Source: Armatimonadota bacterium (GTDB lineage: Bacteria; Armatimonadota; Zipacnadia; UBA1398; JAKPQA01). From it: a stretch of DNA of 44,813 nucleotides. Location: contig JAKPQA010000212.1 in assembly GCA_029547025.1 (NCBI GenBank), forward strand, positions 1 to 44,813. Direction: 5' to 3'. The number at the start of each line of letters is the position of its first letter. The first letter of the stretch is position 1. This document shows positions 387 through 43,355 of this stretch, piece by piece. Under the pieces are notes generated by a model. The model ran no database searches. It was given only the letters and a program-made list of their open reading frames with translations, and was not told the DNA's origin. A program made the translations under genes and the position numbers.

Positions 387-2311
387 CCATTCGGGTGCGT
401 CTCTTCCTGAGCTTCCTGGCCATGCTGGTCCTCTTCGGTGCAGGCGGGCTGGTGATTCTGAACCGGGTAGCAGTCGCACAAGAGGCGGCGAGAAGTCTTG
501 CCAGAAGCGCCGAGGACCTGGATCACGTTCAGGCGCTGCGCTACTGGACTGCGGAGCAGTACCGAGCGGTGGCCTGGATGATCATCAACCTCGACATGGG
601 GTCCGATGCCCTGGCCGACTACACCGCTGCCACCAAGAAGCGCGAGGAGCACCTGAAGGCCCTGGCAAGCCTGGCGACGAGCAGTGAGGCGAAGAAGTCA
701 CTGTCGGCTTCGGAAGAGCGTTTCGCTGAGTTCTCCGCGCTCGTCACTGGCAAGGTGATGCCCAGCGTGAAAGAGATCCAGCCCCTGGAGCAAGTAGTCA
801 TGCAGGGGAGAGAGACGACTGCTGCGCAGACCGCTCGGCGCAGACAGCTTCGCAGCCAGCTCCGCAGTCTGAACACGGAGATCGGCACCCAAATGGAGGC
901 GATGAGCACCGAACTCGACAAAGCCAAGGACGCCATACGCACAGCCATGCAGCGAGACACCAAGCTTGCCGAAGCGGCATTGGCGGCGATCCGGTCCACG
1001 CTGGCCGTCAGCCTTCTGGTCGTGCTGATCCTCAGCTTCGCCATCGCCTGGGTGACCGCGTCCTCCTTGGCCGGAGCACTGGATCGCGTCGTGGAACGCA
1101 TCCGGGACATCGCCGAGGGCGAGGGCGACCTCACCAAGCGTGTGGAAACCAATCGCCGAGACGAGCTGGGCGTTCTGGCCAAGTGGTTCAACGTGTTCGT
1201 GGACAACGTCCATCACATCGTGCGGGAGGCACAGGAAGCGGCCTCTGGGGTCGCCGCGGCGTCGCAGGAGGTCGCGGCCTCGACGCAGGACTCGGCGCGG
1301 GGTGTCGAGCAGGTCGCACGTGCCGCGGAGGACGTGGCCAACGGCGCGACCGACGAGAGCGCCCACCTGGCCCGCCTGACCGAAGCAATCGGCGAGCAGG
1401 ACCAAGCATTGAGCCGTCTGGTGGCGGCTCAAGGCCATATGCTCGCGGGGGTGCGCGACGTTGGCGAGGCCATCGGCACAATGACCGAATCGCTGTCCGA
1501 GATCGATGCCGTCACCGAGGACGTCGGAGCCGCGGCGGACAACGCGCTCGCAGCCGCGCGCCGGGGCGGGGCCGTAGCGATCGAGGCCGACGCGGGAATG
1601 GCGCGGATCCGAGACAACTCGGAGGAGGCGATGCGCCAGGTTGAGGGGCTTGCGGCGCAATCGGAGCAGATCGGTGAGATGGTCGAGGTCATCAACGACG
1701 TGGCCGAACAGACCAATCTACTGGCTCTCAACGCCGCCATCGAGGCAGCACGCGCTGGCGAGCATGGGAAAGGCTTCGCGGTCGTTGCCGACGAGGTTCG
1801 CAAACTCGCCGAGCGCTCGGGGCAATCCTCGCAGGAGATCTCCGCCATCGTCCGCGATGTGCGGTCTCGCATCGACGACGTGGTGCGACTCCAACAGCAA
1901 GGGAGCCAGGCTGCCGAGCAGGGTGCCGATCTCGTGCGGCAGTCGACGGCAGCCCTTCAGAGCATCGTTGAGGCCGCCCAGAACGCCGCGGACGGAGTCG
2001 CGCGGGTCCGGGCCGTAGCCGATGTGGCTCTCAAGCAGGGCGAGCGAGTCCGCGAGAACCAGGGCCGGGTGACCGAGGCCGCCCAGGCGGCCGCACAGGA
2101 AGTCGAGAGGGCCGCCAGTATTGCCGGTGGCGTGCGCGAAACGATTGAACTGGTCTCGCGCATCGCCGATTCTGCCGCGGCAGCGGCCGAGGAAGTCTCG
2201 GCCTCAACCCAGGAACTGTCCGCCAGCTCGGAAGAGGTCTCGGCGGCCTCTGAGGAAGCCGCGAGCCTGGCCAGCAGCTTACAGGCTCTCGTGGGGCGGT
2301 TCAGGGTGTAG
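383..2311 (+). CDS. Methyl-accepting chemotaxis protein
   Basis: Membrane receptor that senses a ligand outside the cytoplasmic membrane and controls CheA/CheW signalling. The 642-aa protein has a first membrane segment at residues ~7-30 and an extracytoplasmic helical region to ~205 that resembles four-helix-bundle sensors. A second membrane segment follows at ~207-230, then a HAMP domain (~230-280) containing EGDLTKRV. The long cytoplasmic helical hairpin carries the conserved tip around residues 440-485 ([18 protein letters not shown], then [16 protein letters not shown]). The ATG at 383 is chosen because the purine-rich GGGAGTGGAG lies just upstream and a membrane segment follows directly; the frame stays open further upstream but reads as non-coding. 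No other chemotaxis gene is adjacent. A ligand cannot be inferred. Role is confident, specificity unknown. Confidence 0.95.
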
Positions 2312-33144: not shown

Positions 33145-34176
33145 ATGCCTCGGGTAGTGACCTTTGGTGAGATCATGATGCGTCTGGCGACCAAGCGCTT
33201 CGAACGCTTCGTCCAGGCAAGCGAACTGGAGGTCAGCTTCTGTGGCGGCGAGGCCAATGTGGCGGTGAGCCTGGCTGCCTTCGGTGTGGACGCACGCTTC
33301 GTCACCGCGTTGCCTGCCAACCCCCTGGGCGATGCATGTCTCAACTACGTCCGGCGTTTTGGGGTCGATACCTCGTGCATCGTCCGCCAGGGGAAGCGGC
33401 TGGGCGTGTACTACCTCGAGACGGGCGCGGTGCAGCGTGCCTCACAGGTGATTTACGACCGGGCGGGCTCGTCCATGGCCGAGGTGAAGCGCGGCGACAT
33501 CGACTGGGAGGCGGCTCTTGATGGCGCCCACTGGTTCCACTGGACAGGGATCACGCCGGCCATCAGCGCCTCGGCGGCCGACGTGTGCCTCGAGGGCATC
33601 GAAGCAGCCAAAGCCAAGGGGCTCACCGTATCGGCCGATCTGAACTTCCGCAGGAAGCTCTGGGGCTGGGGCAAGTCGGCCGGCGAAGTCATGCCGGATC
33701 TGGTGAGGCACTGCGATGTGGTGGTCGGAAACGAAGAGGACGCGGAGATGGTGTTCGGAATCCGCGCGCCGGGCTCCGACGTCAGCGCCGGCCATGTCGA
33801 GGCGGCGTCGTACCGCCACGTGGCTGAGCAGCTGACCGCGCGGTTCCCTGCACTGACCCATGTGGCGATCACGCTGCGGGGCAGCCTCAGTGCCAGCCAC
33901 AACACATGGTCGGGCGTGCTCTTCACCGGGGGCGCCATGTTCGCCGGCCCTCAGTACGACATCATGCCGATCGTGGACCGTGTGGGGGGCGGGGACTCCT
34001 TCTGTGGCGGGCTGATCTACGCGATGCTGTCAGGGAAACCGCCCCAGGAGGCCATCGACTTCGCCGTGGCGGCGAGTTGCCTCAAACACACGATCCATGG
34101 CGACTTCAACCTGGTCACCATCGCCGAGGTCGAGAGCCTGCTGAATAACGGGGGCGGCGGCCGGGTACAACGCTGA
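33145..34176 (+). CDS. kdgK: 2-keto-3-deoxygluconate kinase (PfkB family)
   Basis: A 343-aa sugar kinase that phosphorylates KDG with ATP to give KDPG, the substrate of the preceding aldolase. It opens with VVTFGEIMMRLATKRFERFVQA, typical of KDG kinases, then FCGGEANVAVSLA. The substrate region has GVYYLETGAVQRASQVIYDRAGSS. The PfkB signature ends in DRVGGGDSFCGGL, with catalytic Asp284. AGGAGGA lies 7 nt before the ATG. The pairing with eda gives strong context. It ends in a convergent gap with the CBM9/DUF4091-like gene. Confidence 0.93.
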   Translation: MPRVVTFGEIMMRLATKRFERFVQASELEVSFCGGEANVAVSLAAFGVDARFVTALPANPLGDACLNYVRRFGVDTSCIVRQGKRLGVYYLETGAVQRASQVIYDRAGSSMAEVKRGDIDWEAALDGAHWFHWTGITPAISASAADVCLEGIEAAKAKGLTVSADLNFRRKLWGWGKSAGEVMPDLVRHCDVVVGNEEDAEMVFGIRAPGSDVSAGHVEAASYRHVAEQLTARFPALTHVAITLRGSLSASHNTWSGVLFTGGAMFAGPQYDIMPIVDRVGGGDSFCGGLIYAMLSGKPPQEAIDFAVAASCLKHTIHGDFNLVTIAEVESLLNNGGGGRVQR

Positions 34177-38887: not shown

Positions 38888-39381
38888 GCAGGCGCTTCAC
38901 AGCGTCTCCCCACTCGATAACCTCACAACCCACTGGCCCGCCGCCCATCCCGTTCCTCGTGGCCGGGCGCAAAGGCTATGTTCGAAGCCTCGCGGCGGGG
39001 CAGGGTCCGGGACCGGCGACCGGACCGGGTGACGCGAGTGCGGGAGTGGACCAGCGCCTCAGATCCCGGGCACCGCCGGAGCGAGAGCCGCGACTCGGGG
39101 ACTGGAGCAAGACCCACTGGTGCCGAGAGGTCATTTCAGGGTACATGCCGTTGGGTGTCCCACAGGGAGTTCTGGTTACGCCGTTTGGGGTTTGGGTCCG
39201 GAGGGGCCCAGTCCGGTGAGACGCCCCCCGTGCTTGGTTGCGAGTCCTTCTGGTAGTTGTCCTCCTCAGGAGGCTGTGGGCGCTACGGCCCGTTGGGCCG
39301 CCCCGATCCCTTATCTACGTCCTCGCTCGCGCGCTATGTCCGTAATGGCAGGATCGCGTGCCGAGCACCGGAGGCCTGTCC
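38885..39381 (+). other. Long untranslated leader of rho
   Basis: No gene is seen in these 497 bases; short frames are Arg/Gly/Pro-rich and lack ribosome sites. Two perfect hairpins lie near the 3' end: CCTCC-TCA-GGAGG (39261-39273) and CGGCCC-GTT-GGGCCG (39286-39300). rho genes of other bacteria are autoregulated through a leader by Rho-dependent attenuation, and this leader could serve the same end. No known riboswitch consensus was recognised. Confidence 0.55.
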
Positions 39382-41391
39382 ATGTCCGCTTCTGATCTCC
39401 ACTCGAAGACTCTTCCCCAGCTCCGAGCGCTGGCCAAGGCGCGGGGGCTCGAGGGCATCACGGGACTGAAGAAGGCGGACCTGGTGGCTCGCCTGCTCGA
39501 GGCCGGTGTGGATGCGCCCGCGCCCGGGCCCGTGGCACCTGCGGAGCCTGCCCGGTCCGAGATGCCGGTGTCAGCCCCCGAGGCAGCGCGGCCGGAGGCG
39601 GCGGCCCCCGCAGAGTCAACGGCGCCGCGACGCCGCGGTCGCAGCGGGCGCCAAGGGGCCCCCACCGGGGTTCGCCACGATGCGGAAGAGCGGGATGTCG
39701 AGGCGAGCAGGGACCTCGAGCCGGAGCCCGAGCCGGAGCAGCAGCATGAACCGCAGGGCTCCATCGCTTCGACGGCGCCCATGCCGACGGCCGCGCCGCC
39801 GGCTCCGACGGGCTTCGTGGTTCCGTCGGCCCCTGTGACGTTCGGGACACCCGATCCGGCCGAGTCGGTTCCGGTTCCGCCCATGGGGGCGGAGGTCGAA
39901 CTCCCCGGTGTTACGATGCGCGATAAGCCCGATCGGCCGGACGCGGCCGAGGAGGAACCCCCGCGGCACACGGAGACCGTGGATCGCGACCGGCACGAGC
40001 CGCGGTACGAGTACACGCGAGGTCGCCTGAGCGGACGTTCGCGCCGAGGCGACCGTGGTGGGAACGGCGACTCGCGGCACGAGGCGCCTCGAGTGGACGG
40101 TCGCCCGGACCAGCGCAGTGGCCAGCGCCACGACGGTCGAGGCGATGGCCGGCCTCAGCAGGATGCGCGGCCGGACCGGCGCGGCCGGGGGGACAGCCGC
40201 GACATGCGGGAGCCCCGGGATGGCCGGGGGGAGGCAGAGGGCGACGCTCGGCATCTGGTCACGGGCATCCTCGAGATACTGCCCGAGGGCCGAGGATTTC
40301 TCCGCCGCGCGGGTTACCTGCCTGCCAACGATGATGTGTACGTGTCCGAGTCCCAGATCCGCCGATTCGGACTCCGTACGGGTGACACGGTCGTCGGAGA
40401 AGCGCGGCCGCCCCGTGACGGCACGAGTGAGCGCTATTACTCGTTGCTCCGGATCGAGTCGGTGAACTCGGCGGAGCCTGAGTCGTGCCGGAACCGCCCC
40501 GATTTCGAGGATCTGACGCCGATCTTCCCAACGGAGCGTTTCGTGCTGGAAACCGATCGGAACCGGCTGTCGAACCGGCTGATCGACATCATCTCCCCCA
40601 TTGGAAAGGGACAGCGCGGCCTGATCGTCGCACCACCCAAGGCGGGGAAGACGACCATCCTGAAGGACATCGCGCACGCCCTGATCACCAACAATCCCGA
40701 GGTGGTGCTGCTGGTCCTGTTGGTCGACGAGCGCCCGGAGGAGGTGACCGACATCTCACGCGCGGTGGGGTCGGGAGGTGAGGTGATCGCCTCGACCTTC
40801 GACCAGCTACCCGAGAACCATATGCGGGCGGCCGACTTCTGCCTCGAGCGGGCCAAGCGGCTGGTTGAGCATGGGCGAGACGTGACGATCCTGCTGGACA
40901 GCTTGACGCGCCTGGCCCGGGCCTCGAACCTCACGGTGGTCCCGAGTGGGCGCACGCTGTCGGGCGGACTGGATCCGGCCGCGCTGTATAAGCCGAAGCG
41001 CTTCCTGGGTGCCGCGCGGAAGGCTGAGGAGGCGGGGAGCCTGACCATCATGGCGACAGTGCTCATCGAGACGGGCAGCCGGATGGACGAGATGATCTAC
41101 GAGGAGTTCAAGGCAACGGGCAACTCGGAGATCACCTTGGACCGCAGCCTGGCGGAGCGCCGCATCTTCCCAGCCATCGACATCCGGCGTACATCGACGC
41201 GTCATCACGAGGCGCTCTACTCGCCGGAGGAACTCAAGCAGACAACACTCCTTACCCGCGCCCTGGCGTCACTGGAGGGCGAGGAAGCCACCCGGACGCT
41301 GATTCGCGGCCTCAAGCAGACCCAGTCAAACAAGCAGTTCCTGAGCGTGGCCGAGGAGTTGTTCCGGCGCGAGGCGGCGAACCTATCATAG
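39382..41391 (+). CDS. rho: Transcription termination factor Rho with long disordered insert
   Basis: A 669-aa hexameric RNA helicase that ends untranslated transcripts. Residues ~7-42 are the Rho N-terminal helical (SAP-like) domain (TLPQLRALAKARGL). Residues ~45-290 are low-complexity: first Pro/Ala/Glu-rich, then Arg/Asp/Gly-rich (SGRSRRGDRGGNGDSR, DARPDRRGRGDSRD). The RNA-binding cold-shock-like domain starts at ~295 (GILEILPEGRGFLRR). Walker A is APPKAGKTT (417-425), Walker B region VVLLVLLVDERPEEV, then SLTRLARASN and SGGLDPAALYKPKRF. E. coli Rho has 419 aa, so ~250 extra residues are the insert. GGAGG lies 7 nt before the ATG. Confidence 0.95.
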   Translation: MSASDLHSKTLPQLRALAKARGLEGITGLKKADLVARLLEAGVDAPAPGPVAPAEPARSEMPVSAPEAARPEAAAPAESTAPRRRGRSGRQGAPTGVRHDAEERDVEASRDLEPEPEPEQQHEPQGSIASTAPMPTAAPPAPTGFVVPSAPVTFGTPDPAESVPVPPMGAEVELPGVTMRDKPDRPDAAEEEPPRHTETVDRDRHEPRYEYTRGRLSGRSRRGDRGGNGDSRHEAPRVDGRPDQRSGQRHDGRGDGRPQQDARPDRRGRGDSRDMREPRDGRGEAEGDARHLVTGILEILPEGRGFLRRAGYLPANDDVYVSESQIRRFGLRTGDTVVGEARPPRDGTSERYYSLLRIESVNSAEPESCRNRPDFEDLTPIFPTERFVLETDRNRLSNRLIDIISPIGKGQRGLIVAPPKAGKTTILKDIAHALITNNPEVVLLVLLVDERPEEVTDISRAVGSGGEVIASTFDQLPENHMRAADFCLERAKRLVEHGRDVTILLDSLTRLARASNLTVVPSGRTLSGGLDPAALYKPKRFLGAARKAEEAGSLTIMATVLIETGSRMDEMIYEEFKATGNSEITLDRSLAERRIFPAIDIRRTSTRHHEALYSPEELKQTTLLTRALASLEGEEATRTLIRGLKQTQSNKQFLSVAEELFRREAANLS

Positions 41392-42041: not shown

Positions 42042-42083
42042 GGACGGTGCGTGACCTCCCTATACCGATCGGACGGTTCCCCG

Positions 42084-43355
42084 ATGGCCCAGACGCCTCG
42101 CCCCATTGCATCGCCCGCCGGACGGCGCTACGACGTGATCACCCTGGGCGGCGCCACCCAGGATGTCTTCGTGCGAACCGATCTATCCAAGATCATCACG
42201 ACCCAGGACGTCATGAACAGCACCAGCCTGCTGGCCTTCGATTACCCATCGAAGGTCAACGTGGATGATGTGTGGTTCTCCTCAGGCGGAGGTGCCACGA
42301 ACACGGCGGTGAGCTTCGCCCGATTCGGGCTGCGCACGGCGTGCGTGGCCATGGTGGGCGATGACACGCCGGCCGAAGCGATTCGGGCCGAACTCGCAGC
42401 CGAAGGCGTCGACACCCATCTCGTGGCGACGGCGGCCGGCGCGAAGACCGGCTACTCCGTCGTACTCAACAGCTTCCAGGGCGATCGGACGGTGCTTGCG
42501 TACCGGGGAGCGAACAGCCGGATCGGCCGGGAGAACATCCCGTGGGACGACCTCAGCGGTGCCGCGTGGCTGTACGTGTCATCGCTGACCGGGTCTTCGG
42601 GCGATGTGCTGGATGAAGCCGCCCGCTTTGCGGAGAACCATGGAGTGAATCTGGCGCTCAACCCGGGCAACACACAGATCCGCATGGGGATGCGAGGACT
42701 GGCCAAGATCCTGTCGCTCGTTGAGATACTGTTTCTCAACAAGCAGGAGGCCGTACAGCTCACCAACGTGCAGTGGACGCGACGAGTGGCCTTGGCTTCC
42801 TTGTGCAACCTCTGTGGCGCGTGTGTGGATATCTGCCCCGTTAGCCTCTTCCGGATCGCCGACGGCCGGCTGTACATCGGTGACGAACGCAAGTGTATCC
42901 GGTGCCGAGAGTGCCTGGACCACTGTCCGACTCGCGCCATCCAGATGGAGCCTTGGGCCAGCAATCTGGACCCGATCCTGGTGGCCATCAAGGAACTAGG
43001 TCCGAAGATCGTGGTGATTACCGACGGCGGAAATGGGGCCCAGGCGTACGATGGAGAGACCCGGTACATCGTGCCGCCGTGCAAAGCACAGGTCGTCGAC
43101 ACTCTGGGAGCGGGCGACGCCTTCGGTGCGGCCTTCACGGCAGCGATCATCCGCGGACACGACATCCCGACGGCGCTGCTGTGGGCCAGCGCCAACGCGG
43201 CCTCGGTGGTGGGCCAGACGGGTGCGAAACCCGGGATTCTGCATCTGGCGGATGTCGAGCGGTTCATCCAGGAGCACCATCCGGGGCCCGAGTCGATCCG
43301 GACCGGCACGATCCGGAAGGATGCCCTGTCCGAGATGGTGGATACGGAACGGTAA
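42084..43355 (+). CDS. PfkB/ribokinase-family kinase with inserted 2[4Fe-4S] ferredoxin domain
   Basis: A 423-aa single-frame protein. Residues 16-235 are the N-terminal part of a PfkB kinase: YDVITLGGATQDVF, the glycine pair region SSGGGATNTAVSFARFG (66-82), and FLNKQEAVQLT with the N-x-x-E magnesium motif. Residues ~238-290 are a complete bacterial ferredoxin: CNLCGACVDICP (Cys241, 244, 247, 251) and CIRCRECLDHCP (Cys271, 274, 277, 281), each CxxCxxCxxxCP. Kinase sequence then resumes with IVVITDGGNGAQAY and VDTLGAGDAFGAAF, where Asp345 is the catalytic base. All kinase motifs are present, so activity is expected. Substrate (sugar or nucleoside) is not clear. A GTG at 42051 would add 11 residues and would be almost leaderless; the ATG at 42084 has only a weak GGACGG. 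Redox or iron sensing is inference. Confidence 0.9.
   Translation: MAQTPRPIASPAGRRYDVITLGGATQDVFVRTDLSKIITTQDVMNSTSLLAFDYPSKVNVDDVWFSSGGGATNTAVSFARFGLRTACVAMVGDDTPAEAIRAELAAEGVDTHLVATAAGAKTGYSVVLNSFQGDRTVLAYRGANSRIGRENIPWDDLSGAAWLYVSSLTGSSGDVLDEAARFAENHGVNLALNPGNTQIRMGMRGLAKILSLVEILFLNKQEAVQLTNVQWTRRVALASLCNLCGACVDICPVSLFRIADGRLYIGDERKCIRCRECLDHCPTRAIQMEPWASNLDPILVAIKELGPKIVVITDGGNGAQAYDGETRYIVPPCKAQVVDTLGAGDAFGAAFTAAIIRGHDIPTALLWASANAASVVGQTGAKPGILHLADVERFIQEHHPGPESIRTGTIRKDALSEMVDTER

Follow-up and report, generated by a model that had tools for sequence, protein, structure and literature searches.

We found that the 44,813-nucleotide stretch of DNA analysed here (the window) carries a gene for a PfkB-family kinase whose catalytic fold is interrupted, between the N-x-x-E and GAGD motifs, by a ferredoxin module of about 67 residues (228-294). 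The same architecture occurs at the same site in six further genomes, with 44-48% identity over 384-411 residues, and the insert-bearing kinases look like a genuine enzyme family, though a rare one. The reading that we favour is that the kinase depends on redox, oxygen or iron state, for which the support so far comes from the distribution of the insert. Few small-molecule kinases have been studied as much as the PfkB family; a conserved insert under strong ligand selection would tie central or nucleoside metabolism, within a single polypeptide, to redox state, oxygen or iron.

The gene is a single stop-free frame of 423 aa, and an in-frame GTG at 42051, upstream of 42084, is possible as its start. 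The Pfam family PF00294 (PfkB) matched with E=4.3e-50 in two stretches, and its score of 171.2 bits against a curated cut-off of 25.8 places the protein in the PfkB/ribokinase family. Between the two stretches lay a Fer4 match (PF00037, 5.7e-11) together with the dicluster families Fer4_10, Fer4_9 and Fer4_7, all above their cut-offs. An initial annotation had described an uninterrupted PfkB frame with all of its motifs and an internal eight-cysteine module with two CxxCxxCxxxCP motifs, and both the description and the coordinates were right. The features are as follows.

42084..43355, plus strand: PfkB-family kinase gene with an internal 2[4Fe-4S] ferredoxin module (frame, Pfam, homologues)
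42237..42803, plus strand: first part of the PfkB catalytic fold, with the substrate side and N-x-x-E (PF00294 match in the DNA; ribokinase fold, Z 38.5)
42738..42749, plus strand: N-x-x-E motif N219-K-Q-E222, Mg/ATP site (invariant in 7/7 insert-bearing proteins)
42765..42965, plus strand: ferredoxin insert, residues 228-294 (Fer4 matches; missing from aligned orthologues)
42804..42836, plus strand: first cluster motif, C241xxC244xxC247xxxC251, then P (all four Cys invariant, 7/7)
42894..42926, plus strand: second cluster motif, C271xxC274xxC277xxxC281, then P (three of the four Cys invariant; C274 replaced by Thr in genome G761)
42948..42965, plus strand: exit tail E289-P290-W291-x-x-N294 (invariant in 7/7)
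42984..43229, plus strand: second part of the PfkB catalytic fold (PF00294 match in the DNA)
43107..43118, plus strand: GAGD motif, residues 342-345, with the catalytic Asp345 (invariant)

A DNA pattern for Cys4-Pro followed by GAGDA at the right spacing matched once in the window and in 0 of 100 shuffles. The protein did not reach any equivalog cut-off in NCBIfam, the best being TIGR02152 at 127.5 bits against 299.65. The window also holds a second, ordinary PfkB-family gene at 33145-34101.

An AlphaFold2 model of the full-length protein, built from a 14-row alignment, had a mean pLDDT of 78.9. Within it the insert formed two strand-helix-strand units with pLDDT of about 72-86, and when modelled alone it was poor (pLDDT 55.9). 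The kinase part of the model matched E. coli ribokinase (1rk2) with a Z of 38.5 over 305 aligned residues, indicating that in the model the insert leaves the fold unbroken.

We also asked how the protein compares with known systems. In its fold, N-x-x-E motif, DTxGAGD motif and ATP site it resembles the ribokinase/PfkB family (PF00294; E. coli RbsK and YdjH; the Sinorhizobium adenosine kinase 3ubo), whose known members differ from it in having no Fe-S module; every solved member compared agrees with the initial annotation's point that such kinases lack Fe-S clusters. The two CxxCxxCxxxCP motifs and their spacing are those of bacterial 2[4Fe-4S] ferredoxin domains (Fer4_7/9/10; HgcB, MvhB repeats), which stand alone or in redox enzymes, whereas here the domain is inserted in a kinase loop. 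No PDB chain joined both domains, the best matches being kinase-only or ferredoxin-only; among curated families none was found that describes the combination, and among open-licence papers we found none on a PfkB protein with Fer4. The domain architecture is thus apparently undescribed, as the initial annotation had supposed.

The closest functional parallel comes from Rpo3 (D), a subunit of archaeal RNA polymerase: in anaerobes its ferredoxin-like domain carries two [4Fe-4S] clusters, and other lineages have lost the clusters or the domain (PMC5300874). Rpo3 likewise holds a ferredoxin-like domain inside a non-redox protein; its host protein is unrelated, however, and its domain affects polymerase assembly. 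To our knowledge the plant FRUCTOKINASE-LIKE proteins FLN1 and FLN2 have no Fe-S domain. They are PfkB-type and are redox-linked to thioredoxin z via vicinal cysteines (PMC3409070), and would so share with the window kinase a redox link, made by a different device, but they are part of plastid transcription complexes.

We scanned a species-genome collection with the spacing-constrained DNA pattern and obtained at least 119 stretches. Among the matches listed, 19 open reading frames kept the combined motif and only one, L065, was a kinase; it is a homologue of the window protein over residues 14-399 (44% identity, E 7e-106). The remaining combined-motif frames were RnfC-like and other ferredoxin-domain proteins, which we rejected as chance matches. 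Three more insert-bearers (in G292, G293 and G305) were found among the relatives of L065, and 392 genomes sampled evenly across this Planctomycetota-type phylum yielded only the same four. The other two members, from G721 and G761, belong to the phylum of Gastranaerophilales (47-48% over 384-411 residues), and 194 relatives of G721 yielded no insert-bearers beyond these two. A scan of genome contigs with the window protein gave no match, plasmid and phage collections gave none covering more than 80% of the query, and no insert-bearing member was found in viral contigs. Insert-bearing kinases thus number at least seven in three phyla, and the enzyme is rare and patchily spread.

Within the window's phylum, an end-to-end match was found in only 1 of 291 genomes, the window's own, which taken by itself would favour an assembly chimera or a contaminating contig. 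Against this, the junctions are common to six independent genomes, and the rho gene of the window contig was closest to its counterparts in the two genomes of the same order (68%, against 55-64% elsewhere), so that the contig fits its own genome. These two results refute a chimera or contamination, to which we now give next to no chance; an assembly chimera was one of the outcomes that the initial annotation had named as refuting its reading.

As for whether homologues keep the cysteines, 55 of the 56 cluster cysteines are retained across the seven proteins, in all of which the catalytic N219, E222 and D345 are also invariant. Judged by sequence identity, the insert diverges faster than the kinase core, cluster cysteines excepted (core 43-50% identical to the window protein, versus 22-38% for the insert minus its invariant Cys). 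The only lost ligand is Cys274, replaced by Thr in G761, where the second motif (in L306:1161-2528) reads CxxTxxCxxxCP, a pattern that may accommodate a [3Fe-4S] cluster or no cluster at all. The exit tail, at the return from the insert to the kinase, is common to all insert-bearers and argues for a single origin of the insert.

In 34 other genomes of the window's class, the kinase was 37-49% identical and the match broke at the insert (in one truncated case, earlier). Where insert-free orthologues were aligned in detail, the helix 'LTG...' led directly to the next helix, 'DERxMLRxLHxAG', so that the insert is a discrete module of about 67 residues in one loop. The orthologue in G004 (L010 / L165:9117-10226, minus strand) is without the ferredoxin and has a shortened exit segment (EAGFDREEWAESM), 'DREEWAESM', in which REEW is kept and which is perhaps a remnant of insert loss. 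In the Gastranaerophilales phylum the insert-free kinase is common, 84 of 194 sampled genomes matching the kinase part only (L172, L299-L304). In a tree built on kinase-core columns, the deeper nodes of which were weak, G721 and G761 grouped with the insert-free G740, G718 and G712 with support of 95 and 98. Monophyly of the insert-bearers without these three was rejected (p-AU 0.034), while monophyly with them included was accepted (0.494). Since G740, G718 and G712 are nested with insert-bearers and monophyly without them is rejected, the insert was probably lost in their lineage, which is likelier than repeated gain. Together with the seven-cysteine member, the insert-free orthologues form a natural, ready-made comparison set.

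To relate the insert to oxygen, we tallied one oxygen reductase, the heme-copper oxidase COX1 (PF00115), in a count that rests on incomplete MAGs and few independent events. COX1 was absent from all six genomes with the eight-cysteine form (G000, G291, G292, G293, G305 and G721). The seven-cysteine genome G761 had four matches, and its insert-free sisters G740, G718 and G712 had three to four each. Insert-bearers thus look to live mostly in anaerobic-looking bacteria, and the pattern, from few independent events, suggests oxygen-labile clusters kept in anaerobes and lost in aerobic lineages. The insert-free genomes G004, G007, G014 and G609 were likewise without COX1, so that neither its absence nor anoxia makes the insert necessary. 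The initial annotation's proposal of oxygen or iron dependence gains indirect support from the occurrence of the eight-cysteine versions in genomes without COX1.

The protein may be a small-molecule kinase of ribokinase (PfkB) fold with its catalytic machinery intact, probably acting on a nucleoside or pentose; a predicted ferredoxin-type domain, inserted in the loop that follows the N-x-x-E helix, would bind up to two [4Fe-4S] clusters. The clusters would be oxygen-labile and, when loaded, would support the region of the fold holding the ATP/Mg site; given anoxia and ample iron the kinase would be stable or active, and it would drop off upon cluster loss. We put at about even the chance that an active kinase depends in this way on loaded clusters for its stability or activity, as a condition-dependent lock like that in Rpo3. 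Redox gating of the kinase is plausible, and it is possible, at a little short of an even chance, that a metabolic kinase is gated directly by its built-in 2[4Fe-4S] ferredoxin, with redox, oxygen or iron state setting sugar/nucleoside phosphorylation and no separate sensor protein needed.

We considered it unlikely that the clusters act as a reversible switch, in which their reduction or oxidation while intact, and not their loss, alters the nucleotide site and couples phosphorylation to electron status. The full eight-cysteine layout of a low-potential ferredoxin, which differs from that of minimal structural clusters, and the position of the insert between two ATP-site motifs would suit such a switch, but one member persists with seven cysteines, and the neighbourhoods of the insert-bearers contained no linked redox partner gene, a partner oxidoreductase included. 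A purely structural or docking domain, with stable clusters serving folding, oligomerisation or recruitment and no sensing, would agree with the faster divergence of the insert and with a sister lineage that tolerates its loss; we think this quite unlikely, as in the sampled set the eight-cysteine form was found only in COX1-free genomes, which points to lability. That the ferredoxin carries electrons in a transfer which the kinase fold drives or gates with ATP seems improbable: the 2[4Fe-4S] layout is typical of electron carriers and the domain resembles HgcB, RnfB and MvhB (NCBIfam and PDB), yet the catalytic residues of the kinase are intact, insert-free orthologues manage without the insert, and a redox operon was not found. 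Dependence of the kinase on loaded, oxygen-labile clusters is our preferred reading.

The gene neighbourhood hints that the kinase is tied to nucleoside salvage. In G291, G292 and G293, a gene of about 150 aa resembling nucleoside 2-deoxyribosyltransferase (PF05014/PF15891, near or below cut-off) has its start in an overlap with the stop of the kinase gene, and this coupling in three members is the source of the hint.

L162:7401-7871; L065:2331-2780; L163 about 1630-2076 (minus strand): nucleoside 2-deoxyribosyltransferase-like gene, beginning inside the kinase stop codon

This gene was absent from G000, G305 and G004 in a search with an approximate copy of the L162 protein that recovered all three true copies (E<=1.5e-58), which rules out a general co-occurrence with the kinase. 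The next gene in G291 and G292 is rlmN-like. The transcription terminator gene rho (39358-41391 in the window; L305:1556-2839 in G721) shares a contig with the kinase in both genomes, 0.7 kb ahead of it in the window and some 6 kb away in G721, with a different gene order; this proximity is probably a coincidence.
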